DNA of 38,303 bases from the IMG/VR virus record IMGVR_UViG_3300030380_005852, positions 1 to 38,303 of that record; one strand, given 5' to 3'. The position numbers were made by a program, and so were the translations under genes. Within the stretch, counting starts at the first letter, position 1. Each line of letters begins with the position of its first letter. The notes beneath the pieces were generated by a model. It searched no databases. It saw only the letters and a list, made by a program, of their open reading frames with translations, and was not told where the DNA came from. Positions 488-32,462 of this stretch are shown piece after piece. The DNA is from a virus.

Positions 488-501
488 CATAGCTAATATG
501 T

Positions 502-512
502 GATATATAATA
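502..512 (+). promoter_or_regulatory. Putative phage promoter -10-like element
   Basis: GATATATAATA lies in the 52-base gap between the truncated first gene and the S1-like gene, 28 bases before its ATG. The same core, GATATATAA, recurs at 28810 and 33956 in other gaps, and a variant occurs at 1673. It resembles the AT-only late promoter of T4-like phages (TATAAATA) without being identical. In an AT-rich genome chance occurrence is a real alternative. Confidence 0.35.
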
Positions 513-539
513 TAGTTTTTAACCTTGTAAAATAATAAA

Positions 540-1673
540 ATGCCAAAGCAGCAAATACTGATTCAACTCAGTGATGATCCATTTGATACTAAAAAAGTTG
601 AAGTAGATTTACCAAAAGACGTAAAACTTTTATGTAATAGGCCATATGCTTTAGAACACTTAGAAATGTATGGACTAACTATTGAACAGTCAGAGCCTGC
701 AATTTCTGATGATAATTCATATCTAACAGAAGGAACTGTCATAGGATTATCCGATGATACTGCGCTTGTTCAAATAGACAAAAAGAGAACAGCTGCTGTT
801 CAATTAAGTAGTGAAAGTAGATCTGTTATTGATCAACTAGAAGTCGACATGGCAATTGATATTCATGTTAGACATACTAACAAGGGAGATATTATTGGAT
901 CAATAACCGAGGCTATAAAGATAAAAACTAAACAAGAATTATTTGATTCCATAGGAGACAAGACTGTTGCATTCCCGGGTTATGTTAAAGAATTAATACA
1001 TGGCGGATATTGGGTAAATATTGCTGGTATTGATTGCTTCATGCCAGGATCAGTTGCAGGTCTGAATAAATTACATGACTTTGAATCTTTAGTAGGGCGA
1101 GAAATTTATGTAATGGCTATAAACTTTTCAAGAGAAAAGAATGTAGTCGTGGTTTCGCATAGAGAATACCTCAGAACATTAATACCTGATGCAATCGATA
1201 ACTTAAAAGGCAACATTGAAACAAAAGTTAAGGGATTCGTTACCGGAACTACTAAGTTCGGGGTATTTGCGCAGTTTAATGATTGTCTTACAGGTTTGAT
1301 TCCCGCTGAAGAGTTAGATGAAGAGACTAGAGAGTTATTTAATAATGGACAAATAAAACCTGGAGATTCTATAACATTTTGGGCACATGATATTGTTTCT
1401 GATAAAAAAATAATTTTAAGCCAAAAGGGAGTCAAAGAAAACCCATGGGAGGGTATTAGTGAAAAGTATCGAGCAGGTTTAATAACAAAGGGATTGGTTG
1501 TAAAGGTAGCAAAATACGGTAGTTTTATTCAGTTAGAAGAAGGTATTAGTGGATTGCTCCATATATCAAAACAAAAGGGTCAAAAGCTATCGAAAGGCGA
1601 TGAATTGATGGTTAGAATTAATTCAATTGATGAAGTTGAACAAAAAATAGATTTCTCTCTCGCAGCAAACTAA
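540..1673 (+). CDS. S1-like RNA-binding protein with four S1 repeats
   Basis: The 377-residue product resembles a shortened bacterial ribosomal protein S1. I see four OB-fold S1-type repeats at about residues 63-125, 141-208, 226-296 and 314-375. The last two are clearest: GFVTGTTKFGVFAQF...GLIPAEEL and GLVVKVAKYGSFIQLEEG...GLLHISK carry the usual G-x-V...GxF/Y...GLhH/P pattern. The first about 55 residues are unrelated to S1. S1 repeats bind single-stranded RNA; in bacteria S1 brings mRNA leaders to the 30S subunit, most importantly where Shine-Dalgarno sites are weak or absent. The start ATG follows an A-rich leader (AAAATAATAAA) with no Shine-Dalgarno. A translation or RNA-binding role is inferred from the fold; the protein could instead protect RNA or compete with host S1. 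Confidence 0.85.
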   Translation: MPKQQILIQLSDDPFDTKKVEVDLPKDVKLLCNRPYALEHLEMYGLTIEQSEPAISDDNSYLTEGTVIGLSDDTALVQIDKKRTAAVQLSSESRSVIDQLEVDMAIDIHVRHTNKGDIIGSITEAIKIKTKQELFDSIGDKTVAFPGYVKELIHGGYWVNIAGIDCFMPGSVAGLNKLHDFESLVGREIYVMAINFSREKNVVVVSHREYLRTLIPDAIDNLKGNIETKVKGFVTGTTKFGVFAQFNDCLTGLIPAEELDEETRELFNNGQIKPGDSITFWAHDIVSDKKIILSQKGVKENPWEGISEKYRAGLITKGLVVKVAKYGSFIQLEEGISGLLHISKQKGQKLSKGDELMVRINSIDEVEQKIDFSLAAN

Positions 1674-1695: not shown

Positions 1696-2997
1696 TTGTT
1701 AAGCAAAGTCGAAAAACAAAATGCATTACTAGCATCCAAGATAGGATTTGAGTTTGAGTTCTTTTCAAAGAAAGATCTTAAAGAAACTGCCAGTTCACTT
1801 TCAAGATTACTAGGAAAGAAAATACGCATCGAGGACAAAGCACACAGTGCATTTAATCCAACAGATAATGAGTTCAAATTAGAGCCTGATAATTCCGGTG
1901 GATCTGGAATGATCGAAATGGTCACAGGCGCACTTGAGTTTCCAGAAGCAAAGGTCTTGTTAGGCAAAATGTTAGGGTGGATTCAAAAGAATGGAAGTAC
2001 TAACGACAGATGCTCGATACATGTTAACATTTCTTTTTCCGGAGATAAATTAGGAACAGAACTAAATATTTCTAATTTAGACATCGGTAAGTTTGTACTT
2101 AACTTCGATGAGGATAAAGTTTACGATGCGTTTCCAAATAGAAAAGACTCGGTTTATGCTAAGTCAATAAAATTTGTTACACCGCTTAGCGGAATGGTTC
2201 AACGCACCCCTGATAAAATTAACTGGAAGGACTTTCAGTTTGTCAAAGAGAAGTACTATGGTGTAAATTTTAGTAAGGCTGCAAAGGGATATTTAGAATT
2301 TAGATATCTGGGCGGAGCGGATTACGAGAAAAAATATCCAAAGGTCTTGAGTATGATAGAGCATTTCATCATAAGCCTTTATGAAGTATTAGTTAACCCA
2401 GAGTACAATAAAAAAGATGTAGAAGCTCTTGATAAAATACTAAAATTACACTTGCCTATTATACAATCTTATAAGAGTTACGATGACTTTAAAAAGCATT
2501 TTAAAGATATTAAAATATTGGTAGATCTTAGTACTGCTAAAAACATAATAGATTCTTATTGGACTGTTATCAGAGACAGTATACTAAAGATACTAAACGA
2601 AACAGGCATGCAAAAAGGTATGATCAACTACGATTCTGACCAAGGCAGAATACAAATTAAAGATGCAGATTTACCAAAATGTTTTTTGCTAGAATCTGTT
2701 GACATTGTTGATTGTAAAATTTCAGGCAACGTTGTAAAATCCGATATATTCAACTCTGACATAAATTCATCTTCATTATTTGAGTGTAATTTATTTGGGT
2801 CTACTAAAGTGCAAGGGTCTAAACTAGAAGACTGCTATGTTAGTAGAAATGTAAATGTAAATGATTCATATGTATTTGGAGAACGCGGTGTATTTAGTGG
2901 TTCAATGAAAGGAGGTATATTCAGAAAGGGTCGCGCTACTAAGCATGCTGATCTTAATGACAAAGTTGAGATCATTGAGATAGAAAAAATAGATTAA
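1696..2997 (+). CDS. Amidoligase-family (COOH-NH2 ligase) protein with C-terminal repeat region
   Basis: The N-terminal about 230 residues carry the signature of the glutamine-synthetase-like amidoligase superfamily (amidoligase_2 type): GFEFEF at 17-22, LEPD...MIEMVTG at 62-78, SIHVNIS at 107-113 and LEFRYLGG at 200-207. The Glu pairs and His109 are the expected metal- and ATP-site positions. Known relatives are predicted to join a carboxylate to an amine on peptides or proteins, or in cell-wall metabolism. Residues about 330-412 form short repeats rich in Asp, Asn, Ser, Val and Ile (DIVDCKISGNVVKSDIFNSD), like a small beta-helix or pentapeptide-type stack that could bind a target. The only usable start in this frame is TTG at 1696; the ATG at 1721 is out of frame. 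Substrate unknown. The gene ends one base before the next ATG, so the two are probably co-translated. Confidence 0.75.
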   Translation: MLSKVEKQNALLASKIGFEFEFFSKKDLKETASSLSRLLGKKIRIEDKAHSAFNPTDNEFKLEPDNSGGSGMIEMVTGALEFPEAKVLLGKMLGWIQKNGSTNDRCSIHVNISFSGDKLGTELNISNLDIGKFVLNFDEDKVYDAFPNRKDSVYAKSIKFVTPLSGMVQRTPDKINWKDFQFVKEKYYGVNFSKAAKGYLEFRYLGGADYEKKYPKVLSMIEHFIISLYEVLVNPEYNKKDVEALDKILKLHLPIIQSYKSYDDFKKHFKDIKILVDLSTAKNIIDSYWTVIRDSILKILNETGMQKGMINYDSDQGRIQIKDADLPKCFLLESVDIVDCKISGNVVKSDIFNSDINSSSLFECNLFGSTKVQGSKLEDCYVSRNVNVNDSYVFGERGVFSGSMKGGIFRKGRATKHADLNDKVEIIEIEKID

Positions 2998-2998
2998 A

Positions 2999-3850
2999 AT
3001 GGCTATAATAAATTGTGATGATAATGCATCAAGAGACTGTCTTGATGAATTAGTAAAGATAATAAACGACGATCTAACTGTTGCCTGTCAAATACCATTT
3101 ACAGTTCCTAAAAAGGAACTAGCTAGAATCATAAACAGAGCTAAAGACTATTTCTATAAAATATATGAAGATAGCGTAGAAGAAACTTATCTTGCACTTC
3201 CGAGAGCTGTATTTGCAACTGATGCGTTTATGAATGGTAATTTTGGTAAGGATGATGTTTTGAACAGTTCTGATATAACTTCACCTAGAGGTGTTGTTCC
3301 AATGCCAGAACAGGTTTATTCTATCAATAACGTTTTTGAAGTAAATAGATTTGCTGGTGAAGATGGCGGATTTGGGTCTCAAACATTCTCAGCCGGGGAC
3401 CGGGATTTCGCCATTGACAAGTTTGTTTATTCTGATGCGTATCGCGGAGCTGGTGCTGGAATAGCAAGTGAGAATTTAATGTACTATGTTATAAACGAAA
3501 AATTTATTGATAATGCTAGACAGGCTCTCCAACAACAAATAAGCTATTCCTATAATAGGCTAACTCATAAATTTAGATTTCTCGGAGAACTTCCTAAAAA
3601 CGAAGTTATATTTCAAGCATATATCAAAGTGCCTGATTGTGCATTATTTGCAGATGAGGCATTCCAGAGATATGTAATTGCAAGAGCTAAACAGCAATTA
3701 TCTAGAATACTTGGTACTTTCCAATTTAATTTACCTGGTAATATAACAATAAATTACGATTTAATACAATCAGAGGCTACTGATGAGATTGATAAGCTAA
3801 TAGAAGAAATTAAGTTAGATGACGGAGCTGATTGGTTTTTCACTGCATAA
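2999..3850 (+). CDS. Probable virion structural protein (neck/connector or baseplate region)
   Basis: The 283-residue soluble protein has no signal peptide, membrane segment or catalytic motif. Its C-terminal half has the pattern RYVIARAKQQLSRILGTF followed by NLPGNITINYDLI. I associate this pattern with uncharacterised structural proteins next to baseplate or neck genes in large T4-like marine phages, but I cannot name the T4 counterpart. The Gly-rich segment at about 115-160 is probably a loop. It starts one base after the amidoligase stop and lies just upstream of gp25 and gp6, which supports a tail or neck role. Family identity is uncertain. Confidence 0.6.
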   Translation: MAIINCDDNASRDCLDELVKIINDDLTVACQIPFTVPKKELARIINRAKDYFYKIYEDSVEETYLALPRAVFATDAFMNGNFGKDDVLNSSDITSPRGVVPMPEQVYSINNVFEVNRFAGEDGGFGSQTFSAGDRDFAIDKFVYSDAYRGAGAGIASENLMYYVINEKFIDNARQALQQQISYSYNRLTHKFRFLGELPKNEVIFQAYIKVPDCALFADEAFQRYVIARAKQQLSRILGTFQFNLPGNITINYDLIQSEATDEIDKLIEEIKLDDGADWFFTA

Positions 3851-3917: not shown

Positions 3918-4280
3918 ATGATAAGAGACATTTATAATAGAGAGGCTGATTCCGCTAAGTTTGATCCTAACAGGCTAGAAGTAACGGATACGCTATCACA
4001 GTTTTTATTAAAAATAGAAAATACTCTATTTACTCGAAGACATGAAGTTTTAGGTGCATCTGGATTCGGGGCTAATCTCGATGATTTACTCTTTAGTCTA
4101 ATATCTAATGAGAGCCAAATAAGAAATAGGATAAATACCCAAATATCAAACTATTGCTTAAATGGTCCTAATATATTTGCATATGATACTAAGGTTCAGT
4201 TTTTCAAGACGGTAGAAAGAAGCGGAGCTTTGATAGAGATATTCATTAATGATCAACGGGCATTAGGAGTCGTCTTTTAA
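3918..4280 (+). CDS. 25: Baseplate wedge protein, T4 gp25-like
   Basis: The 120-residue protein has the length and pattern of the gp25 family, the lysozyme-related-fold wedge subunit found in contractile tails and type VI secretion sheath-baseplate complexes. The diagnostic segment is LKIENTLFTRRHEVLGASGFGANLDDLLF (residues 31-59, quoted only to mark extent), with the family's LxTxxGE/HxxG core followed by G-x-x-L-x-x-LLF. The C-terminal half ends in the beta-rich IEIFINDQRALGVVF. In T4 gp25 joins gp6 and gp53 in the wedge core; here gp6 follows directly, as expected. The start is an ATG after TTCTGTAAAA with no Shine-Dalgarno. Confidence 0.85.
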   Translation: MIRDIYNREADSAKFDPNRLEVTDTLSQFLLKIENTLFTRRHEVLGASGFGANLDDLLFSLISNESQIRNRINTQISNYCLNGPNIFAYDTKVQFFKTVERSGALIEIFINDQRALGVVF

Positions 4281-4296
4281 AAAATTAAAAATATAA

Positions 4297-6162
4297 ATGT
4301 CATTTTTTAGTAAAACTAGAATAAAAGCTACAGAGCTATTTCAAGATGCTTTTAGATTTTTGCAAGAAAAGTATGATCAGGCTGTAGAAACATTTACTCC
4401 TGCTTCTCCTTTTGGCCAGATCCTTACTGTAGTTGCTAACCTTGGTGAACTTATATTTTTCTATATAGAAGCCGTTGCAACTGAATCAAATATATCTAGA
4501 GCCAGAAATATCGAATCGATCTATGGACTATCAAGGCTGACAGGTCATGATCCTACTCGTGGCATATCTGCTAGAGGAATAATTGGTATTAGACTTAACC
4601 AAATGGCCTCAGAAATACCAGGGGACTATGTACAAATTAACAGGTTTGCTAAATGTAAAGTAGTAAACAATGATCAAAAATATTTTTTAAATTTTGACTC
4701 CGACTTTATAAGGCTAGAAAAATCAAATCCAGATTTTATAAATGTTGAACTAATTCAAGGAGAAAGGGATACGCAAAAGTTTACAGGAACTGGTAGAGAT
4801 ATTCAGGCATACAATTTAACAACTACCGATGCAACCGACCAACATCTTGTAACAGTGACAGTTGACGCTGAGAGATACGAGATAGTTGAATCTCTGTATG
4901 ACATGGATAAAGGTGCAAAGGCAGTGCTAGTGAAAACTTCAGTAAATGGTGGTCTTAGCATATTCTTTGGAAATCAACAATTTGGGTTTCCGCCGCCTCT
5001 TGGTTCTATTATTGAAGTAGATTATGTGAAAACGCGTGGATCTAGCGGTAATGTTGGTGGAAGTGGCATAACGTTAGAGTTTGAGGATCCTGCTACAGAT
5101 CAGCAAGGAGAAGATGTCGATCTTAATAAGTTCTTGCAAATAAAGATTGTACGCAATCCAAGCTTAGGCAGTAATTCCGAGGATCCGGATCTAACTAGGC
5201 TCATTGCGCCAAGTGCAAGCAGATCGTTTGTTTTAGCAAATCCAGACAACTACATATATTTTTTAAGAAAGTATGATTTCTTTAGCTTTATTAATGCATA
5301 TAATACAAAGGATGATCAGTATTTAGATGATGATAATATCATTTATTTGTTTTTGATACCTGATATTCAAAAAAAGCTAACAACTAATTTAGACTATTTT
5401 ACAGTTCCCGAAGATGAATTCTCGTTAACAGCAGATGAAAAGGAACAGGTCAAAGAAATACTCAACGAAAGCGGTAGACAGGTCGTAACAGCTGAAGTTA
5501 GGATTGTAGATCCAAAAATTAAAAGATATGCTGTAAATATAATTCTTAGATATTTTGAAAATTTTGATAAAGCTGAAATTAGAAATAGTATCAGAAAAAC
5601 CCTAAATGATTATTTCTTATCGGTCAAGCGTCGTGATAGAATACCAAGATCCGACTTAGTCGCATTGATAGAGCAGACTCCAGGTGTTGATTCAGTAAGT
5701 GTATTCTTTGTATCGCAAGAGAACGAAGATGCAATTAGAAATGGATATTATTTTGTGCCAGTCTTTGGTACTGATCCTGCAACAGACCAGCAAGTTCTAA
5801 TAGAGAATAAAAAAATAGTGCTAGAACAGGGAGAAGACCCAGGTCTTGGCTTAGATAGTTTTGGTGATATAGTGATTGGTGAACAAGAATTAGCAATTAT
5901 AAGAGGTGGCTGGGAAGATCGACAAGGAAACTATTATAACGATGTGCCAGAAGGAAATAAAATTGGGCCATTAAATGTTTTCTTCAAGGACACAGTACCG
6001 AATGATCTATACTCAAACTTACAACAGAATGCATTTAATAATTTAAGAAGAAATAGGGGTACTACGCCAGCAATCAGCTCAAATGCGCCGACAACAAGTA
6101 CTAGAACTACTGGTCAACTTGGAGGGCCTAATACACTGACTGATTCTAATTACGGTACTTAA
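4297..6162 (+). CDS. 6: Baseplate wedge protein, T4 gp6-like (baseplate J family)
   Basis: At 621 residues this is close to T4 gp6 (660). The N-terminus has the family pattern: a helical FQDAFRFLQEKY, then TPASPFGQILTVVANLGELIFFYIEA, and after it ARNIESIYGLSRLTGHDPTR, typical of gp6/baseplate-J proteins. The C-terminal half contains AEVRIVDPKIKRYAVNIIL and a helix-turn stretch DRIPRSDLVALIEQTPGVDSVSV, also characteristic. gp6 forms the ring that links baseplate wedges and responds during contraction. The last about 50 residues are Thr/Ser/Asn-rich and probably disordered. DPATDQQ occurs twice (about residues 265 and 493). Position after gp25 agrees with T4-like order. Confidence 0.85.
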   Translation: MSFFSKTRIKATELFQDAFRFLQEKYDQAVETFTPASPFGQILTVVANLGELIFFYIEAVATESNISRARNIESIYGLSRLTGHDPTRGISARGIIGIRLNQMASEIPGDYVQINRFAKCKVVNNDQKYFLNFDSDFIRLEKSNPDFINVELIQGERDTQKFTGTGRDIQAYNLTTTDATDQHLVTVTVDAERYEIVESLYDMDKGAKAVLVKTSVNGGLSIFFGNQQFGFPPPLGSIIEVDYVKTRGSSGNVGGSGITLEFEDPATDQQGEDVDLNKFLQIKIVRNPSLGSNSEDPDLTRLIAPSASRSFVLANPDNYIYFLRKYDFFSFINAYNTKDDQYLDDDNIIYLFLIPDIQKKLTTNLDYFTVPEDEFSLTADEKEQVKEILNESGRQVVTAEVRIVDPKIKRYAVNIILRYFENFDKAEIRNSIRKTLNDYFLSVKRRDRIPRSDLVALIEQTPGVDSVSVFFVSQENEDAIRNGYYFVPVFGTDPATDQQVLIENKKIVLEQGEDPGLGLDSFGDIVIGEQELAIIRGGWEDRQGNYYNDVPEGNKIGPLNVFFKDTVPNDLYSNLQQNAFNNLRRNRGTTPAISSNAPTTSTRTTGQLGGPNTLTDSNYGT

Positions 6163-6432: not shown

Positions 6433-9400
6433 TGGGACTCTGGAGTAAATTACAATTTTTTGATAAGAATGGTAAAAACCTAAACTTTAAGTATGATCAG
6501 ACTAATGACAAATGGACTGGTGATATTTACATGTCGGAGGTTTCTATAAATCTATTTGAAACTGCACAGCTCTTCATAGTACAAGAATTTGTAAATGCAA
6601 GCACGAATACGTTTGAGTTTGGATACCCACACACAACTGCCGAAAGTATTCCTAACACAGACCAGTCTGGTCCTTGGGCAGTTTATGGCACAGACGAAAG
6701 TGTTTTTAGTAATGGCACAGGATATTATTATCCACTTTACACTAATGAGCAAGATGCAATTGATGCGAATGATGGACCACCGATGGGAGGCCTACCAAAC
6801 GGTTTAGCTCATGTTCATAGATTTACCCAATATCCCGGTATAGATTTTTACATGCCAAATAGTGCGATGAATCATGGTGCGTCCACTAATGGCGGCTTCT
6901 CAGTATATGGAGGCGAGGGGTGGAATGTGGATTGGAAGGATACTGATCCAACACAGATATTTCTATTTTCTTTCGACAAAACATTTCAGTCGGGCACGCA
7001 GTCTGCGTTGTTAAGAGAGCCTGATGGTCCACCTTTAGAAGAGCACGACGAGATCTTTTACAAATTAGATTACGATGCGAATCAAGTACAACTTACAAAC
7101 GATTTCCTTGAAACATCTATAATTACATCTGCGGCATTAGAAATTAATGTAGCTTTTAGTTCTAGTACAGGAAATACTTACAGGAGAACACTTGTAATAA
7201 CTGATACTGTTACAAACACGGTTTTGGCAGAAATAACTTTTTACGGAGAGTCAGTTGAAGAAGATGAAAGGCTAAAGGTTATAACTCAAAACTTAGGTTA
7301 CAATATAATTGATACCGATAGTACAATATTCAGAAACACTGACATAAACGAGATCCTACCTAACTTTGAGGAAATAAACAGAAAGCGTAGGGAGATAATA
7401 ATGGAGGGCCATAACATTTACCCATTCATAGGCTCGTACAAAGGACTCGTAAATGCTCTTAAGTATTTCGGCTATGATAATATGTCAATAAGAGAATATT
7501 GGAAGAACATCGATAAGGCTTCTCCCAAATATGGTAAGTATATTCAAACTACACCTGTAGTACTTGACATGAAGACAAGCGACTTTAACGATCAAAGTAT
7601 AACTTTACCAAATAAGAAGTTTAGAAAAACAAGCTTATTCTCTTTAGTTTATAAATTAAACGACATAAAACCTGGTGAATTCACAGATGAAGATCTTCCA
7701 ATAACAGAAGAGACAAGTGAATTTACAACCGAAGAGGTGATCATAAAATTGTTCGGACTAAAAAGAAAACTTGAAAAAGACTTTTTGCCGCTCAATGCAA
7801 GAATTAAGGATATAATCGGTGAGGCTGACTTTTTTGGTTTGAACGAAGTTACTAATTCTATAAGTAGAAACCTTACTAATTCTATAACCGCGGGTGTAAA
7901 TGTAGATTTTAAGATCACTCCTGACGGATGTGGTAATATAAAAGATCTTAGAGACCTTTTAAAATTAGCTCCACCATGTACAAAGGTAGACAATGCTATA
8001 ATTGGGCAAACCTTTATATGCCCAATACCAGGTTATCCTGGTCAGAATTTAGTACTAGGCCCATATGACACAGGTGAAGAAATTGAAGCTACTCTATTTG
8101 GGCCTGATCTAAATAGTGTTCTTGGAGAACCGGTTGATGGTAATGATTTTACTATTTCTGATATAGCAGATTTTTATTTAGCATATTTCAGTAGATATGC
8201 TCCTAATATTAATACGCTTGACCACATACCAGGCAGATCAAGTAATCGGCTACCAGACAAGCCAGATATAGAAATAGGATATCCAGTAGTTTTAACTAAT
8301 GATTCGTTCAACAGCTTAACTTACGATGATATTAATTCAACATATAATGAGCTAGGGAGTGGTGTTATTTATAGATTTGAATTTATACCTGAAAATGTAT
8401 CAGTAAATGATGTGTTTATAATTACAGATCCTATAACAGGAACAGATGTCAGATATACTGCAGTCTTAGGAGACAATTCATCTGACGTTGTGGATGGTCT
8501 TTTTGATGCAGTCCAAGTGGAAATAGATGCACGTAACAGACCATGGTTTCTTTATGAGATATCTAAAGAAACAAATGATAATGGCATAGCACTAGTAATA
8601 TCTGGTAGTGACTCTAACAGGTTAGTCCCTAGTGTGATACTAGATTCTAGTTTAAATAGTGCAACATTGACTAAAAACCAACTCCCAGGAAATTTATTAT
8701 ATACATGGGATAATATCCTTCGAGGTAATTTCATCGAAATGGAATGGACTGTATTTAAAGACGCTGACGCAGATAGCGGATCTTTTTTCTATACCATAAG
8801 AGGAAGCATAGACGAGCTAGATTCTATACCAGTAATTTTACCAGGGCTGGGTAAATATAATGTAGAATTAAAATTATTTGATCTATATAATAATATTTCA
8901 TCAACTATAAAGTCTGACTTTATCTGCGTTGAACCACTTGAGGTTGAATTCAGTGGATGGTATCAGGCTAGGCAACTGGAATATAAATGGCAAGATAGCA
9001 AATATACATGGGGAGATTATGGTGCTTTTTGGGATCTTCCTATACCACCAAAGGTGTTAGTGAATGATGAAACTCCTGCTCTTTATGATTCCTTAGACAG
9101 CGTGAACGCAATATTAAACACGTTTGGAATAAATGCAACACCCAGCTTCCAAATGATGAACTTTCAAAGCAATGGAAAGGTAAGTTTTGCTGGACCATAC
9201 TACTGGGACAACATGGATACGGGGAGTTGGAATGATACTTACCATTTATGGTGGGACATGACAAGGGTAACTGGAGACACTCCTGCCTATTTTGAATTTG
9301 ATCAAGTAGAGCCTGGGTCATTTTTGCAAATTATAGATGTTAATAATGAAGTTGGAACACATTTCTTTCCAACAAGCACATCAACGTTATTGGAAGCAAA

Positions 9401-9938
9401 GCGCCAGCTAAACGAATCAACAGACCCTATTATAAGCAAATATATTTACAATGCTGTTTTAAAAAGCACAGCAACTGGTGATTCTGTCGTTTATATACAA
9501 GCAACTGCTAGATATGCTGGTAAGTATGGTGACTTTACAAGTATTGACATGATAGATCAAAATGGTAACAGGATTTGTAGAGAATCAACCTCAGCAGATA
9601 TTGTAGCCACTGGATGTGAAAGTATCATATTTGACTCAGGACAAAGCCGAACTAATAATCCAACATATAATACAGTTAAGTTTTTAAATGATGGGAAGGT
9701 GCTACCTCGATATACTTGGGCTATGTTTGTCTACGATAAATGTAAAATAGCTGGAAAGAAAAATCCCAAGTGGAGAATTAAAGAAACTACAGGTAAAACC
9801 GGCATAGATATATATTTTGAAAGTAAACATTTGACATATATGTTTAAGGAAAAAGGTAAATATGAAATATCTTTAGAACTAGAAGATTCTAATGGAAATA
9901 AATACTCAACTACCAGAAACATGGTTGTAATTAAATAA
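6432..9938 (+). CDS. Very large baseplate/tail structural protein (gp7 position)
   Basis: The product is 1168 residues, without signal peptide or membrane segment. The region at about 290-480 is helical and charged (INRKRREIIMEGHNIYPF, then KLFGLKRKLEKDFLPLNARIK) and looks like a packing core. Residues about 758-840 and the last about 100 resemble Ig/PKD-type beta-sandwiches (the latter ending GKYEISLELEDSNGNKYSTT). Tyr, Trp and Asp are frequent near 840-960. By order (gp25, gp6, small protein, giant protein) it fills the place of T4 gp7, a 1032-residue wedge protein, but I see no sequence signature that proves homology. It overlaps the upstream gene by one base. Confidence 0.6.
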   Translation: MGLWSKLQFFDKNGKNLNFKYDQTNDKWTGDIYMSEVSINLFETAQLFIVQEFVNASTNTFEFGYPHTTAESIPNTDQSGPWAVYGTDESVFSNGTGYYYPLYTNEQDAIDANDGPPMGGLPNGLAHVHRFTQYPGIDFYMPNSAMNHGASTNGGFSVYGGEGWNVDWKDTDPTQIFLFSFDKTFQSGTQSALLREPDGPPLEEHDEIFYKLDYDANQVQLTNDFLETSIITSAALEINVAFSSSTGNTYRRTLVITDTVTNTVLAEITFYGESVEEDERLKVITQNLGYNIIDTDSTIFRNTDINEILPNFEEINRKRREIIMEGHNIYPFIGSYKGLVNALKYFGYDNMSIREYWKNIDKASPKYGKYIQTTPVVLDMKTSDFNDQSITLPNKKFRKTSLFSLVYKLNDIKPGEFTDEDLPITEETSEFTTEEVIIKLFGLKRKLEKDFLPLNARIKDIIGEADFFGLNEVTNSISRNLTNSITAGVNVDFKITPDGCGNIKDLRDLLKLAPPCTKVDNAIIGQTFICPIPGYPGQNLVLGPYDTGEEIEATLFGPDLNSVLGEPVDGNDFTISDIADFYLAYFSRYAPNINTLDHIPGRSSNRLPDKPDIEIGYPVVLTNDSFNSLTYDDINSTYNELGSGVIYRFEFIPENVSVNDVFIITDPITGTDVRYTAVLGDNSSDVVDGLFDAVQVEIDARNRPWFLYEISKETNDNGIALVISGSDSNRLVPSVILDSSLNSATLTKNQLPGNLLYTWDNILRGNFIEMEWTVFKDADADSGSFFYTIRGSIDELDSIPVILPGLGKYNVELKLFDLYNNISSTIKSDFICVEPLEVEFSGWYQARQLEYKWQDSKYTWGDYGAFWDLPIPPKVLVNDETPALYDSLDSVNAILNTFGINATPSFQMMNFQSNGKVSFAGPYYWDNMDTGSWNDTYHLWWDMTRVTGDTPAYFEFDQVEPGSFLQIIDVNNEVGTHFFPTSTSTLLEAKRQLNESTDPIISKYIYNAVLKSTATGDSVVYIQATARYAGKYGDFTSIDMIDQNGNRICRESTSADIVATGCESIIFDSGQSRTNNPTYNTVKFLNDGKVLPRYTWAMFVYDKCKIAGKKNPKWRIKETTGKTGIDIYFESKHLTYMFKEKGKYEISLELEDSNGNKYSTTRNMVVIK

Positions 9939-9964
9939 ATAAACAATAATAAAATAATAAAAAC

Positions 9965-10618
9965 ATGGCAATTAGCGTTACGGAAATCCTCGGAACAGAT
10001 TCAATATCAGGCTCTAGATTAGTTATTAACGATAACTTTAACATTCTAGCAGCTGAAATAAACTCAATTGAAAATTACATAAACCCAAGTGCTGGTACTA
10101 TTACCAACCTAAACGATCTTAGAACAGAGGCATTGCGCGTAGGCTTAAGCACTGTCCTGCTTGATATAAATGCTAGTACCTTTGATATACTAACTGACGT
10201 TGATATTAACAATGGTGATCTTACTCTAACAGGCGGTGGATTGGTAAGAAATGACATTGACCCACAGGTCTTAAACGATACATTTGCTGGAGCATCACTA
10301 ACGATTAATGTTGGAACGAGCACTGCAGTTCCTCCTTACACAATCGAAAGAGTAGGAAATGCAGATACTGGATCACTTAATATCTTGCTTAACGATGGTG
10401 CAATTGGACAAGAGATTTTCTTTGTTTATTCTGAGGCAAACACAGGTGCTGTTGAAATTACAGGTGCTGTAAACGCATTAGTCCTACCTGGGGCTGGATC
10501 TACTCCGACATTGACACTAAGCGAAAAGGGTGACAGCGTTCATCTTTTGTGTATTGATGATGGAACAGGAAATGGTGACTGGTATCTCGTCGGAGGTAAC
10601 GGTTACGTAATATCATAA
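9965..10618 (+). CDS. Short fibre-like virion protein with shared attachment motif
   Basis: The 217-residue protein starts MAISVTEILGTDSISGSR and contains INDNFNIL. This matches the start of the collagen-like fibre at 21238 (MAITIRELLASDTISQAT...INFNFDQLL), so both probably use the same N-terminal docking segment. Residues 40-100 are repetitive and beta-prone (DINNGDLTLTGGG). The rest is a beta-rich domain ending GDWYLVGGNGYVIS. This is typical of short tail fibres or baseplate decorations. The leader is A/T only (AATAATAAAAAC). No enzymatic motif is seen. Confidence 0.55.
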   Translation: MAISVTEILGTDSISGSRLVINDNFNILAAEINSIENYINPSAGTITNLNDLRTEALRVGLSTVLLDINASTFDILTDVDINNGDLTLTGGGLVRNDIDPQVLNDTFAGASLTINVGTSTAVPPYTIERVGNADTGSLNILLNDGAIGQEIFFVYSEANTGAVEITGAVNALVLPGAGSTPTLTLSEKGDSVHLLCIDDGTGNGDWYLVGGNGYVIS

Positions 10619-10634
10619 AAATTAAAAAGTATAA

Positions 10635-12746
10635 ATGGCAACAACGCCTCTAATTAAAACACCTCAAGCGCAGGGTGGGACATTCTATACATTTTCATCC
10701 GCTGCAAGGGACTTGTCTAGAACGCTTAACAACGATAATTTACGTTTGGTGTTTTCTAAATTTGTTCTTTTGAACTTGCCTGATTTTGATAGACTCAATT
10801 TTAATAGTTTTAGCAGTAAGCAAAACTTTATGCAATTTGATACTATTGATGGCATGATCAATAATGGAGGTCTTAAAGCAGATCCAAATGTAAACTTTAC
10901 AGAAAGTTTTCAAAACTATGCTTTAAATATAGAGGAGCTAATTATTAGCGACACTAATTACGACAATACAACAAATAAATCAGTTTCTGAGCGTGTATTT
11001 TTTAAATGGCTTAAGGAGACAGGAGCTATTCGCTTTCGTAATGCCACATCTCTTGAGCAATCCGGTACGGCTACAGGACAACTATTCACTGAAGAAGATG
11101 AAATAACTACTGGTACTCAGCAGTACAGAAGAGTTGTAAAATATATCGGGGACATTGATGTTGTTAACAACGTTGAACTAGCTGGAGAATCATATACTGA
11201 GGTTTATATAAATGTGCCCACTGAAGTTGGGGGTACACCAACTATACTATTCGAATCTTTGAGTGATGAAAATTACTCTGCCAATCTAAAGATTCAGGGT
11301 AGCAGTGAATTCATAGCAGGTAGAAACGCCTCATCGTCACATCCACAGGGACTGTCTATGAATGCTTTCTATGATTATGATGAAGCATTACAAGGACCAG
11401 GTCCAGCAGGATATACTGATCCGAATGCAAATTGGATGAACGAACAAACTCCTCCAACTGTAACTGATGCATACTTCACTGAGCCTTTTGCCTTAAATGA
11501 CCCGACAACTGTTGAAATAAGAAAATATCCTGCAGACTATGGAAGCCCAGCTGGATTCACTGGTGTTGCTTATCTCAGATCTAGATTAGATGGTATTTCT
11601 GTTGACTTCAAAAGTAATGACTATCAGCAGATCACAAGTGATCCAACAATTAGTACAATATCTCAATTTAATGGTACAGATCTATCTAGCAACTTTGAGT
11701 TTAATTCTGTGCTAGTCTATTATGATATGGTCGATGTAAATGATTCGTCAAACAATACGACTAACCTATATGGACTTTTACTGCTAGATAATATCACTCC
11801 CACAACAGATGGTGGTTTCATCGAAAGATCTCCAAAATTTAAACCTAACGCAGCTACTGGCCAGAATGGTAATTCATTTGGATTCAAGCTAAACCTTAGG
11901 TTTGATGCCGCTCCAGGGACATCTGGCGTTGACACGATCATAAATGATTACAATACGTTCTCAATGCAACTGTTTAGTGAAGCCACTGCACAATTGCAAG
12001 AATCTGCTAGAATATTCCAAGACCAACAAGTTACATTAAATGGGTTGGAAACTAGGGTCACTGGATTAGAGAACACCCTTGATGGTATTTCAGATGCAAC
12101 TTCGCTGCAATCACAGATCAATAGTTTGCAAAACCAGTTTAACCAAACTGGCATAGCTTTACAAAATAGTAGCACACTGCTTGATCTGATTGCTAAAAAT
12201 GCTGATGAGATTCAAAATCTTGCAAACGGAACTGTTTCTACAACATTACAATATAATACATCAGTTCTAAGACAGGGTTCAGGTATAACATTAGATAAAA
12301 CAGTTCCTAACCAAATTACGTTTAGCTCTAATGTACAACAATATAAATTTATGTCCCCTGTTGACGAAAATGGCACTGAAATAACTGCAAGTGCTCCTTT
12401 AAATATAAATGTTGCAATACCAAAGGTATTTGTAGAGTTGGCCACATATACTAATATGTTAAGATTGCCTGTTGAAAATACTGCAGGTGGTGATCTTTTA
12501 ATTTATATTGACGACCTAGCAACACAGTTTAAAACTGGTCAGGTTGTAAGATTAGTATTCACAACTGATCTAGACACATCTAGAAATATAAGAGTATTTA
12601 CTGATTCATCTAACAGATTAGGAACTGGTGTTTACGGTAAGGAGATTGCTAATATAACAAGTAGTGATTTAAGCACAAGACCCATAATTGAATTTATTTG
12701 TCTAGAACAAGGAGTGCTTAATTTCACCTTTGACATTATTAAATAA
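10635..12746 (+). CDS. Large virion structural protein with coiled coil
   Basis: The product is 703 residues. The first about 430 are beta-rich and Asn/Thr/Asp-rich, without a recognised domain. Residues about 441-532 form a probable coiled coil with heptad-like Leu/Ile spacing (VTLNGLETRVTGLENTL, LQSQINSLQNQFNQTG), suggesting trimerisation as in fibres. The final about 150 residues are a beta-rich domain ending FICLEQGVLNFTFDIIK. Order within the tail block suggests a fibre or peripheral baseplate component. I cannot link it to a named T4 gene. Confidence 0.55.
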   Translation: MATTPLIKTPQAQGGTFYTFSSAARDLSRTLNNDNLRLVFSKFVLLNLPDFDRLNFNSFSSKQNFMQFDTIDGMINNGGLKADPNVNFTESFQNYALNIEELIISDTNYDNTTNKSVSERVFFKWLKETGAIRFRNATSLEQSGTATGQLFTEEDEITTGTQQYRRVVKYIGDIDVVNNVELAGESYTEVYINVPTEVGGTPTILFESLSDENYSANLKIQGSSEFIAGRNASSSHPQGLSMNAFYDYDEALQGPGPAGYTDPNANWMNEQTPPTVTDAYFTEPFALNDPTTVEIRKYPADYGSPAGFTGVAYLRSRLDGISVDFKSNDYQQITSDPTISTISQFNGTDLSSNFEFNSVLVYYDMVDVNDSSNNTTNLYGLLLLDNITPTTDGGFIERSPKFKPNAATGQNGNSFGFKLNLRFDAAPGTSGVDTIINDYNTFSMQLFSEATAQLQESARIFQDQQVTLNGLETRVTGLENTLDGISDATSLQSQINSLQNQFNQTGIALQNSSTLLDLIAKNADEIQNLANGTVSTTLQYNTSVLRQGSGITLDKTVPNQITFSSNVQQYKFMSPVDENGTEITASAPLNINVAIPKVFVELATYTNMLRLPVENTAGGDLLIYIDDLATQFKTGQVVRLVFTTDLDTSRNIRVFTDSSNRLGTGVYGKEIANITSSDLSTRPIIEFICLEQGVLNFTFDIIK

Positions 12747-12762
12747 ATAAGTAAAGAAAAGG

Positions 12763-15700
12763 ATGGCAGAACAAAATTCATTATCAACTCTCTTACCTGA
12801 ACTACTTAGACTTTTTAATAACTCTTTGCAGAGTTTCGAGAAGGTTAACCAGGCTATTACATCAAATAGAGAGTCTGTCACTATTGATTTACAAAACCAA
12901 GATGGTAGAATACAAAAGGTAACTATACCAAGCTTTGGCTTTTTGAAAAACTCAATCGAAAGGCTTGATTCTAACATTGATACAATAACAAATTTAACAG
13001 GAGCAGGAAGTTCGCTGAGACTACCTGATGGTACTTTTAGAAAGCTAGCACTTTCAAAGCTTCCAACAGAAGCACAAGATTTAACTAGCATAAACTCAGT
13101 TAACCAGTTTGAATTTAAATCTAATTTCTTTTTTGAGAGTCTTATAAACCCTCTTTTATTTGTAACATTTGATATAACTGGACAGGCTCCTATCGATACA
13201 GAAAGAGCTGTTGTTAAACGATATATTTTAGACACAAACACTCAAGCAAAGATTAACTTCTTTGATGAAACTTACAAAGGTAAGTCCGATGTCGACTATA
13301 ACGAATTTCTTGAAGAACTTGTAACTAGAAACATCTCTTATATTTTAGATGAGGATGTTATTGATTTGCCACCTAGAGATAAAAGATTCTTTGGTAAGTT
13401 TAGTGTTATTAGAATCAATGAAGTTGATGTAACAGAAGAAATCAACGGTGTATCTATTACAACAACTAAAAAGCTATATAAGCTAAATAAATTATCTTAT
13501 TCAAGCGTAGATGCTGATTTCCAAGATACAGTACAACTTAAGGTTGGTGACAGCCTAGAAGTTGTGTCAAATCCTGTTGATACTAGATACACTGTATCTC
13601 AGGTTGATTCAACAACCAATTCAGTAGTGCTAGAGCTAGTTGAAGGATCTAAGGCTATTAGTATTGGATCTGATGTTCTGAAAATATCTTCAGCCGCCGA
13701 CGAAACATTGAGTGTAGAAGTTGCAGTTGGATTTGATGAAAGGTCGGTTGTGTTCTTAAAGCCAATTGATCCTGATTCAAAAATACCAGCAACTAACTGG
13801 TCACCAGGTTCTGCATTCTACACTAACGATCTTACTACATTCAATATCGATGGCACTGAGCAGACATTAGCTGAATTTTATCAGAGCCAGGCAGTTGACT
13901 TCGGTAAATTTTTATTATCTTTTGCTAATGATAAAATACCAACATCAGGCGAAGGGCTAAAACCTAATGCACCAACTTTAGATTCAACTAACTTTGAAGT
14001 AAAACTGATAAATGGCCAGATTACAGACTCTGCAACATCTGTGCAAATAGTTGATCTAAATAATCAGAAAAATACACTTTCTGCAGAGTTACGGCAATTA
14101 GACCAGGCTATAGATCAAAAGCGTACTCGAATACAAACCACAGCATATGCAACTGAAGTCGAACGTGATGCTGATAAGAGTGAGCTTAGAGGACTCATCA
14201 CAGAGAGGTCATCTAAAAGTGACCTGTTTGCATCAGTTGTTACAGAAATACTTTCATTTGCAGAAGATAACTCAATAGAAAGCGCAGCGCCTAAATTCAG
14301 AGTACGAGGATTTTGGCAAATGCCTACCGAAAGAACTGCGCCTGAGACTGGAGTACAAGAAATTGTTAAATTTCAAATTAGATATCGTTATCTTTCAGCA
14401 GACGGCGCAGCAAATCCTGTTGATCAAATTACCTTCACAGATGGAGATAGTACAAGCCAGGGCGCATTTTCTAACTATGTATTAGTAGATAGTGTAATTA
14501 GGCCTAGAACATTAGACTCACTAACTGGCAAATACGAATGGGCAAATATCGATAACGAGAATGCAGAGGAAATAAACATTAACCAGCTCGATATTCCTAT
14601 TAGAAAGGGTGAGATTGTAGAAATATCAGTTAGATCGGTGTCAGAAGCCGGTTGGCCGAGCAATCCTTTAATAAGCGATTATTCTGAGCCTATAAGAGTG
14701 GAATTCCCAGCAGACCTGAGTTCAGATAACGCCGTCGTTCAAATTTTAGAACAAAATAGAGAGGACCAAGCCAGAATAGCATTAGAAGAAGACTTAGAAA
14801 CTAAAGGGATTGATGAGCACTTAAGCAGTTCATTCACAGCAAATGAAAATTATTTTGCACACACTTCTAACGTTATCGCGTCTGGATTTTTATCTTCTGA
14901 GCAGACACCTATAGATCTATTCTCTAAACTAACAGAATTCCAAAATAGTATCAACCAATTTGCTGAAATACTAAACCAAGGAATTGGTGAGCTTAAAATA
15001 CAACTTGTCGATGAATCTGGTACTACAATTCCTATTGCTCGAGACACTGTAAATAGAGTTTTTGCAGGATTTTATTCAGATGAGGTTGCAAACCTTGATG
15101 ATCCAAAGGGTGCTATTGTAAATAAGACATTCTTTATCAACATATCGAATGCTGTACAAACTCCATTGCAACTTATAGCTAGAATTGCCGGGTCTAGGCT
15201 TAAGATGGCTTTCCAGTCTGAAAACCCAGGATTTACTTTAGCAGAAGCACAGAATGGAACTGTAGTACTTCCTGCTGTTTACCCATATCTAGATAATGCA
15301 GCTGCACAACAAAGCGATTCTAGACCTACTTATGATTCTGCTGACATAGATTATAACAGACAAAGAAAGTATGATCTTACGCCAATCGTATTGACCAATC
15401 CAACAGTTGACGCAAATAACCAATTTGGTCAAATCAAATCATTGGCTCCGTACCAATCAGATCAAAATAAAAATCAGTTCATTTATTCAAGGTTTAAAGA
15501 TGTCTCCTCTGAAGATTCATTCTACAGTTACATAAACCCTGATGATAGGTTTGTAATTAACTTGGACACTGCTGAAAACTTTTATGCTAGAACTACGCAA
15601 TCGACTGGTGGAACTGATTTTTATTGGGGCGGTGGATTTGACGCTAGCGGAGCCCCCACAGTGGCTAATAACTTCTTTGGATCTAACGATAATACTATTG

Positions 15701-27448: not shown

Positions 27449-27793
27449 ATGAAAACATTTAAAGATTTTAAACAAGAAGGAACAGATAATCTCTTCGAAT
27501 CAGCTATGGAAGAGCAACTAACACCAGAACAAGAAAAAGCTATTGACGAAGTAGTTGATAGAATCTTAGAGGGTGATGCTAACGGTGAAGATTTAGAAAA
27601 GATAATGCAAGAAATAGTTAATGAAGGTATTATTGGATCTATATTTGGTGGCCTTACTGGTTTTGCACTTGGAAAAACAATTGGGAAAACAATTGCTAAA
27701 GTGCTTGGGATTAATAAGGGGATTTTATATGATATGCTAACAAGTAGACTAGTGGGTGCGGCCTTAGGTTCTGCTATTGGCAAAAAGATATAA
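27449..27793 (+). CDS. Glycine-zipper protein with capsid-targeting-like N-terminus
   Basis: The 114-residue product begins MKTFKDFKQE, which matches the T4 internal-protein capsid-targeting sequence MKTYQEFIAE at five of ten positions, with conservative changes at two more. Residues about 15-60 are acidic and helical. Residues about 65-114 are small-residue helices with repeated Gly/Ala spacing (GLTGFALGKTIGKTIAK, LVGAALGSAIGKKI), a glycine-zipper pattern found in membrane-associating proteins. No signal peptide is present. An internal head protein released at prohead maturation and ejected with the DNA would fit; a simple membrane protein is the alternative. It stands at the junction of the structural and replication blocks, after the leader TAAATATATAAACT. 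Confidence 0.6.
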   Translation: MKTFKDFKQEGTDNLFESAMEEQLTPEQEKAIDEVVDRILEGDANGEDLEKIMQEIVNEGIIGSIFGGLTGFALGKTIGKTIAKVLGINKGILYDMLTSRLVGAALGSAIGKKI

Positions 27794-28494: not shown

Positions 28495-28794
28495 ATGGAA
28501 AAAAGTTTCAAAATAAATGCAATTTGTAGTAATATTTTTTTAAAAAAAGACAGATTGCCAGCACTTTCTAATTATGTTTATGCATACCAGAAAGAAGCAC
28601 ACCTTTATCCACCATACTCTGGAGAGGTTCTTTCATTAGGAGAAGATATAGATGATGAAGACCTAGAAGTTGGATGCAGAGTTACATTTAATGATATGGC
28701 TGGTGAAGAAATTCAATATGAAGGTGAGACATATCTGTTGATAAGATATCATAATGTTACGTCAGTGATTGGTAAAGATGTAAAAATTGCGTAA
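28495..28794 (+). CDS. GroES-like co-chaperonin (T4 gp31 analogue)
   Basis: The 99-residue protein follows the GroES pattern along its length: an N-terminal strand (AICSNIFLKKD), a disordered stretch at about 21-38 in the position of the GroEL-binding mobile loop, then SGEVLSLGEDI, LEVGCRVTFND, EIQYEGETYLLIRYHNVTSVI. These match GroES's GEVLAVG, VKVGDIVIFND and the C-terminal EEVLIMxExDILAIV. T4 gp31 replaces GroES so that host GroEL can fold the major capsid protein gp23; a similar need is likely here. The mobile loop lacks the usual GGIVL-type hydrophobic tripeptide and has NYVYAYQ instead, so GroEL contacts may differ. It sits between the resolvase and gene 32. Confidence 0.8.
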   Translation: MEKSFKINAICSNIFLKKDRLPALSNYVYAYQKEAHLYPPYSGEVLSLGEDIDDEDLEVGCRVTFNDMAGEEIQYEGETYLLIRYHNVTSVIGKDVKIA

Positions 28795-31700: not shown

Positions 31701-32462
31701 ATGTATATCTACAAAGTAACAAATAAAGCAACAGGTAAAATATATGTTGGTCAATCAAGAAGAAAGGATCCTTCGTATTTAGGAAGCGGAGTCCATATTA
31801 AACTGGCAGTTGAAAAATATGGTAACCACGAATTTTCTAAGGAATATATTGATGAAGCAACAAATCAGGACGAACTAGATGAAAAGGAGAGGTATTGGAT
31901 AAAGAAATTAAAAGCCCAAGATAAAAGTATTGGTTACAATATAGCTGATGGTGGTTGGAATCACTTTACAATTAACGAAGAGATTAAGCAAAAAATATCT
32001 AATACTTTAAAGAAGAAATATAAGAATGGTAATAATAGAACTGGTACAACTTTAACAGATGCACACAAAAAGGCGATAGGTAAAGCTAGTAGGGGTAGAT
32101 TACATTCTGAAGAATCTAAAAGGAGAATGAGCGAAGCACACACTGGTAAAAAACATTCTGAAGAATCTAAAAGTAAGATGAGTGAAGCACATACTGGTAA
32201 AAAACTCAGTGAATCCCATAAAGCTAAAATTTCAAAAGGATTAGTTGGTAGACCAGTTTCTGAAGAAACCAAAAAACTATTAAGCAAAAAGAACTTAAAT
32301 AAAACTCAAAAAAACTCAAAGAGAGTGAAGGCGAAAAACAAAATAACTGGCGAAGAATTTCTTTTTAATAACATTAGTCAGGCTGCACGTGAACTTAACA
32401 CGTATAGGCATTATATCAAAAATAACTGCGTTAAAAATTACGACATATGCATCTTGAACTAA
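31701..32462 (+). CDS. GIY-YIG homing endonuclease
   Basis: The 253-residue product has a GIY-YIG nuclease domain at about 1-85: YIY at 2-4, YVG at 15-17, YLGSG at 26-30, and Glu in EKERYWI near 61-67. Residues about 130-200 are NUMOD3-type DNA-binding repeats (HSEESKRRMSEAHTGKK and variants), and the C-terminus (EFLFNNISQAARELNTY) looks like a NUMOD1-type helix-turn-helix. Free-standing enzymes of this kind (the T4 Seg family) cut related phage genomes and spread their own gene. It lies between a truncated and an intact copy of uvsW. Its last codons (ICILN-stop) are formed by the uvsW start region, overlapping by 16 bases. Unlike other genes here, its leader has a purine-rich GAGGGTGGAAAG about 10-20 bases before ATG. 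Confidence 0.9.
   Translation: MYIYKVTNKATGKIYVGQSRRKDPSYLGSGVHIKLAVEKYGNHEFSKEYIDEATNQDELDEKERYWIKKLKAQDKSIGYNIADGGWNHFTINEEIKQKISNTLKKKYKNGNNRTGTTLTDAHKKAIGKASRGRLHSEESKRRMSEAHTGKKHSEESKSKMSEAHTGKKLSESHKAKISKGLVGRPVSEETKKLLSKKNLNKTQKNSKRVKAKNKITGEEFLFNNISQAARELNTYRHYIKNNCVKNYDICILN
32103..32204 (+). repeat. Two 51-bp tandem repeats in the endonuclease gene
   Basis: The units 32103-32153 and 32154-32204 differ at 5 of 51 bases and each encode HSEESK-x-x-MSEAHTGKK. Two more divergent units follow. They correspond to repeated NUMOD3-type DNA-contacting modules and show recent duplication within the gene. Confidence 0.8.

Follow-up and report, generated by a model that had tools for sequence, protein, structure and literature searches.

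A compact bS1-like protein encoded by a T4-like phage of Bacteroidota, and its proposed action together with phage bS21 on host ribosomes

Why should a virus carry a gene resembling that of ribosomal protein bS1, and can its product act on the ribosomes of the host? This question was raised by an orf near the beginning of a 38,303-base stretch of viral DNA (hereafter the window), with which an IMG/VR virus record of 54,010 bases begins. An earlier note on this DNA had described the protein as a compact S1 with four repeats, in a genome whose leaders are nearly all devoid of Shine-Dalgarno (SD) sequences, and had suggested that it could steer host ribosomes to phage mRNAs or away from host mRNAs. 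We analyzed the gene, its relatives, its neighbourhood and the leaders of the phage and host genes.

The S1-like protein and its viral relatives

The gene and the regions of its product are located in the window as follows.

540–1673, plus strand: phage bS1-like protein, ATG start, 377 aa, four S1/OB domains (D1-D4 of bS1)
540–716, plus strand: N-terminal 59 residues, predicted beta hairpin with LSDDPFDTKK, short helix 37-43 and Y44; low model confidence
717–911, plus strand: domain D1 (residues 60-124), equivalent of the uS2-docking OB1 of bS1; K82 codon at 783–785
957–1169, plus strand: domain D2 (residues 140-210), about 30% identity to D2 of cellular bS1
1215–1433, plus strand: domain D3 (residues 226-298), with a phage-specific VTGTT signature
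1470–1661, plus strand: domain D4 (residues 311-374)

The Pfam S1 model matched the protein in two stretches (E=1e-19), and curated bS1 models covered nearly the full chain, positions 3-342 of the 516 in TIGR00717 being aligned (E=1e-42). The TIGR00717 score of 146 bits is below the 577-bit cut-off for the rpsA equivalog, partly because D5-D6 are absent. AlphaFold2, run with 42 relatives as input, gave a model (mean pLDDT 79.6, pTM 0.54) with four OB folds at about residues 60-121, 145-206, 229-294 and 315-374, as well as an N-terminal hairpin and a short helix that are less certain than the OB folds. The best Foldseek matches of this model were bS1 in the 30S mRNA-delivery complex (9gut, E=5e-25); since the whole-chain TM was about 0.36 and the relative placement of the domains is unreliable, only the folds of single domains and their order were used. 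A profile of the 42 relatives compared with PDB sequences had ribosome-bound bS1 as its top match, residues 52-378 being aligned to residues 11-346 of E. coli bS1 (E=4e-44). Thus, the four repeats read in the earlier note were confirmed by Pfam, by the TIGR00717 alignment and by the predicted OB folds. They form a collinear D1-D4 array, within the range of four to six S1/OB domains that defines bS1 arrays, without D5-D6 and without any other enzymatic domain. No family was found for the protein in PHROGs, structural ones included, or in PADLOC.

A pattern scan of IMG/VR revealed 112 related stretches. All 47 aligned homologues matched Pfam S1, and the median pairwise dN/dS among 37 phage S1 genes was 0.17; therefore the orf is not a chance one, and the gene is under purifying selection. 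In tblastn comparisons the identity of the window protein to its relatives was 27-41% overall: 41% to LR756500, and 27-34% to the Mahaphages (LR745206, LR756502-504) and to Lak, where the match spans D2-D3. Matches annotated as 'Acinetobacter phage', 'Listeria phage' and human-faecal 'Bacteriophage sp.' resemble chromosomal S1 genes of bacteria and were used as outgroups only.

In the maximum-likelihood tree all sampled phage S1s formed one group (100/100) with long branches, outside the S1 proteins of Bacteroidota, Proteobacteria and Firmicutes. Sequence comparison thus places the window protein in a virus-only S1 clade of more than 100 contigs, including LR756500, the Mahaphages and Lak. Residues G174, N176-K177-L178, T235-G236 and T251 are virus-specific: no less than 94% of the 51 non-redundant phage S1s share them, the 12 cellular bS1s compared have other residues there, and the N-terminal LSDDPFDTKK is near-invariant among close relatives. 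A recent theft of the gene from a Bacteroidota host was considered and found unsupported, as the phage proteins make up a single long-branched clade outside cellular bS1.

Ribosome-docking and RNA-face residues

E. coli bS1 is held on uS2 by Phe5 and Phe9 of its N-terminal helix and by Lys43, which occupies a uS2 pocket (PMC10123108). K82 is the alignment equivalent of Lys43: it was kept in 49 of 51 phage S1s, both exceptions being Lak, and was invariant across the 47 aligned proteins, down to 28% identity. Y44 lies at the position of Phe9, with Tyr in 50 of 51 phage S1s. The contacts made by Phe5 and Phe79 in E. coli are absent, as is the Ser44-Glu45 pair located beside Lys43 in cellular bS1, and the N-terminal 59 residues of the window protein are unlike bS1. 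With Ser44-Glu45 missing and an identity of only 17-24% to bS1 over the whole of D1, K82 stands out. The earlier note had asked whether the N-terminal docking domains might be missing. This was not the case, since both D1 and D2 were found, together with the docking Lys and one N-terminal aromatic residue; as far as these residues indicate, the docking part of bS1 appears to be retained in the phage protein, although some of its contacts are not.

The S1 of two Lak phages has a different appearance. Its docking Lys is lost and D4 is not recognisable, while its N-terminus has the sequence F[DN]W[ST]PY[DE], in agreement with the motif F[DN]W..Y[DE] at the N-terminus of Bacteroidota bS1 (68 of 76 host proteins).

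The RNA-binding face keeps the aromatic pair F240/F243 in D3, where Pro255 replaces His, and Y326, F329 and H341 in D4. In E. coli, bS1 reduced to D1-D3 retains every 30S- and mRNA-related activity, with a further contribution from D4 and no requirement for D5-D6 (PMC3858243); by that standard a D1-D4 protein would represent a complete functional set. In Flavobacterium johnsoniae, added bS1 doubles initiation on SD-less mRNA (PMC9976891), and D4 is thought to be positioned near mRNA positions -12 to -15 (PMC6847099).

The same RNA-face residues in D3 and D4 could serve an RNA chaperone or mRNA-protecting protein, which would bind A/U-rich transcripts of the phage and protect them against decay while staying off the 30S subunit. 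Many non-ribosomal RNA-binding proteins contain S1 domains, single-S1 regulators such as CvfD/GSP13 also match the window protein, and action 'on or off the ribosome' was left open in previous work (PMC7162821). We nevertheless consider such a function unlikely: D1-D2, which in bS1 serve docking and not RNA binding, are kept in order together with the docking Lys, the whole-chain matches are to bS1 and not to RNase or PNPase, and the gene is linked to bS21 (see below).

Late gene cluster and linkage to phage bS21

The gene content of the window (gp32, UvsW, a RuvC-like resolvase) is that of a T4-like myovirus of Bacteroidota. Relatives of its baseplate wedge gene were found in LR756500 (51%), in Mahaphages and Lak, in cultured phages of Tenacibaculum, Chryseobacterium and Flavobacterium, and in phage PAU; the Bacteroidota host is inferred from the hosts of these relatives. 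The surroundings of the S1 gene are the following.

501–514, plus strand: promoter-like element TGATATATAATATA, at a distance of 26-39 nt from the ATG of S1
1696–2997, plus strand: amidoligase-2-like gene (weak match, E=0.004), the conserved downstream neighbour of S1, in an order kept in nearly all relatives
2999–3850, plus strand: head-tail adaptor (neck) protein, in the same late cluster as S1
3918–6162, plus strand: gp25-like gene (by gene order) and baseplate wedge gp6-like gene (by PHROG match), in the late cluster of S1

The S1 gene is thus placed between tail-hub genes and the amidoligase-like, neck, gp25-like and gp6-like genes. This order was kept in nearly all sufficiently long loci among the 98 that were fetched, the exceptions being mainly short loci and huge phages. 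In the Mahaphages and Lak, S1 is distant from the gp6-like baseplate gene (316 kb and 550 kb, respectively, in LR745206).

A motif, [TG][AG]ATATATAA, was revealed at a distance of 37-42 nt upstream of the ATG in close relatives, where 36 of 43 S1 leaders have it and about 0.6 would be expected; in the window it is located at 501. In a 181-kb relative it preceded 17 of 195 plus-strand genes, compared with 2.2 in shuffled leaders, and 26 of its sites were on the plus strand and 2 on the minus strand. The genes preceded by it in a relative include those for the portal, prohead protease, tail tube and a gp25-like protein; in relative G011 the portal, protease, tail tube, S1 and other genes have it at an upstream distance of about 25-40 nt (for example 13034, 16460, 18152, 36318, 139641). 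It looks like a candidate late promoter of this phage group. Since S1 lies in the baseplate/neck operon under an element common to portal, protease and tail-tube genes, it is probably a late gene. A narrower candidate, an S1-only operator TATATAATCTATA, was present in 43 of 44 S1 leaders and in none of 420 other genes of the same loci, but a relaxed search found AATATATAA before other late genes, and it was downgraded to a promoter-like element.

The invariant position between tail-hub and neck/baseplate genes and the late promoter-like element might suggest a virion or tail-assembly protein with incidental OB folds. We regard this as very improbable, as the protein matches no structural PHROG, its gene lies far from the baseplate gene in Mahaphages and Lak, and its RNA-face and docking residues are conserved. 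Hardly more credible is a cofactor for a phage RNase, similar to host S1 activating RegB of T4. This precedent, as cited in PMC13157829, and the related T4-like replication genes agree with it; no RegB-like gene was identified, however, and a 30S-docking Lys would be needless in such a cofactor.

The window record starts 539 bases before S1, whereas a second contig from this phage, which overlaps it (99.8% identity across 16 kb), reaches 37 kb further upstream. On this contig bS21 is encoded 18 kb upstream of S1 and on the same strand. Altogether, 12 contigs include 22 kb or more of sequence upstream of S1, and in 11 of them bS21 is encoded in this upstream part, 18-26 kb from S1 and on its strand (the exception is G010; one of the 11 matches is just under the Pfam cut-off), the independent cases being fewer because some contigs are near-duplicates. 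All 11 contigs with less than 22 kb upstream were devoid of bS21, as expected. Both genes were also present in four Mahaphage records, while bS21 was not detected in the S1-bearing LR756500, the nearest huge phage, and Lak-B2; thus, the pair is not obligatory.

The aromatic residue equivalent to Tyr54 was kept in seven of seven phage bS21s, as it is in other phage bS21s (PMC9723584), and bS21 has been described structurally as a bridge that strengthens bS1 binding on 30S (PMC10123108). An extended SD leader, found at five of six host rpsU genes, was absent from six of seven phage bS21 genes; phage bS21 might therefore also escape the autoregulation of host bS21. The bS21 gene of the 735-kb phage LR756503 has such a leader (AAAGGAGGATAA-ATG), like host rpsU, while most nearby genes that were fetched do not, and this phage may have captured the host autoregulation leader. 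Two of the six Bacteroidota genomes examined (G014 and G015) contain more than one bS21-like gene; the extra copies that were read (G014b, G015b) have SD-less leaders and are possibly prophage-derived or an alternative bS21.

Several other genes of this phage deserve mention. The C-terminal part of the amidoligase-like protein looks repeat-like. A GIY-YIG/NUMOD3 homing endonuclease gene (31701–32462) is inserted before uvsW, and a GroES-like co-chaperonin (Cpn10) gene is located at 28495–28794; judged from its sequence, this phage also has apparent genes for a DnaJ-like protein and for glyA-like and cysteine-synthase-like enzymes. Many of its proteins have N-termini of the type MKHITKFSNFIFEK or MKTFKDFKQE, akin to the capsid-targeting N-terminus of T4; among the 58 genes of the upstream part of contig G001, 9 begin in this way, compared with about 1% at internal Met. 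Proteins bearing them, among them five tandem paralogues and a kinase-like protein, are encoded at 8027–12814 of the G001 reverse complement and at 27449, 30911, 35229 and 35883 of the window. In view of their number, the phage may package numerous internal proteins in its head.

Leaders, proposed role and known systems

The earlier note had also argued from the leaders.

520–539, plus strand: A/T-rich leader of the S1 gene, AAAATAATAAA, without SD

Its description of the leaders held: the 4-nt SD core was found at one of 47 gene starts of the window, where shuffling gave an expectation of 2.3, and the region from about -9 to -14 is enriched in A. The conclusion drawn from it was not supported. 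Four cultured Bacteroidota phages sharing the baseplate gene (PTm1, pT24, MaF61 and MA9V-1), in which a whole-record search found neither S1 nor bS21, are also without SD and equally A-rich at -14 to -11, as are the host chromosomes; some SD occurs in PAU (2 of 17) and crAss001 (25%). Because S1-less, bS21-less phages of Bacteroidota mostly share the missing SD, it is not evidence for dependence on phage S1. The absence of SD follows the host phylum and is not diagnostic of phage S1, and neither it nor the A-content of leaders was retained as a mark of such dependence. By the same reasoning, the published correlation between S1 and SD in huge phages (PMC7162821) would be confounded by host phylum.

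The likeness of phage and host leaders also bears on the opposite possibility, a decoy or inhibitor that, by occupying uS2 or host mRNAs, would shut down translation of the host instead of promoting that of the phage. The docking residues are kept in a protein shorter than host bS1 (no D5-D6), and translation by E. coli ribosomes fell to about 5% when bS21 of a Pelagibacter phage was incorporated into them (PMC6375957). Still, we find it quite improbable, as the inferred late expression is a poor fit to shut-off and, with phage and host leaders alike A-rich and SD-less, a general inhibitor would also strike phage mRNAs.

What stands of the earlier proposal is a compact bS1-like protein that could act on host ribosomes; its SD-based part found no support. 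The sequence is equally compatible with steering towards phage mRNAs and with steering away from host mRNAs. We believe that the protein is probably a late, minimal, virus-specific surrogate of bS1 acting with phage bS21 on host 30S subunits. D1, with the docking helix and Lys, would anchor it on uS2 of the Bacteroidota 30S subunit, leaving D2-D4 to retain the A-rich, SD-less 5' leader at the mRNA exit site. Phage bS21 would be located next to it on the 30S platform and would work together with it. During virion production a share of host ribosomes would thus carry phage-supplied mRNA-recruiting parts and would favour the abundant late phage mRNAs. Ribosome binding, displacement of host bS1 and mRNA preference are all predicted features of this proposal, and the success of close virion-module relatives without S1 or bS21 counts against it. 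As a more tentative extension, it is possible, though we would not rely on it, that bS1 and bS21, both mobile mRNA-recruiting proteins of the 30S platform, are replaced late as a co-inherited phage pair, which would yield a ribosome specialised for the virus in hosts that dispense with SD pairing.

How start codons are chosen without SD pairing in Bacteroidota is an open question, in which bS1 is a standing suspect. A phage family with only D1-D4, the docking Lys, selection and a bS21 link offers a compact natural tool for studying it, with residue-level predictions (K82, Y44, the D4 face) for in vitro F. johnsoniae ribosomes.

The steering of SD-less initiation by phage S1 was proposed in 2020 (Al-Shayeb et al., 2020, PMC7162821), and by its sequence relationships the window protein is a further member of the phage rpS1-like family already known. 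The huge-phage proteins of that work are homologous, with Bacteroidota hosts, SD-less genomes and the same proposed role in initiation. They have up to six S1 domains, and the main text of the paper contains no S1 tree or docking analysis, whereas the family described here has exactly D1-D4, the LSDDPFDTKK N-terminus, a fixed late-operon place in about 90 IMG/VR loci and a linked bS21. To our knowledge, the S1-bS21 pairing and the docking and late-operon details have not been laid out before.

Cellular bS1 (rpsA of Flavobacterium and E. coli) shares with the phage protein the collinear D1-D4, the docking Lys, the aromatic RNA-face residues and the whole-chain profile match; the phage protein differs in the lack of D5-D6, in its N-terminal 59 residues, in its long 100/100 branch and in an identity of 17-34% per domain. 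The bS21 of Bacteroidetes phages (Chen et al., 2022, PMC9723584; Mizuno et al., 2019, PMC6375957) is similar in its Tyr54 stacking on the anti-SD, its late stage and its Bacteroidota hosts. These two papers describe no S1 partner for it, and the bS21 of Chen et al. is near terminase/capsid genes, while here it lies 18-26 kb upstream of S1. Finally, the jumbo cyanophage PhiMa05 (PMC13157829) also encodes a bS1, but that protein was obtained along with five more ribosomal proteins, and its origin was traced to a Vampirovibrio-like host, whereas the S1 described here belongs to a long-branched clade of viruses only.
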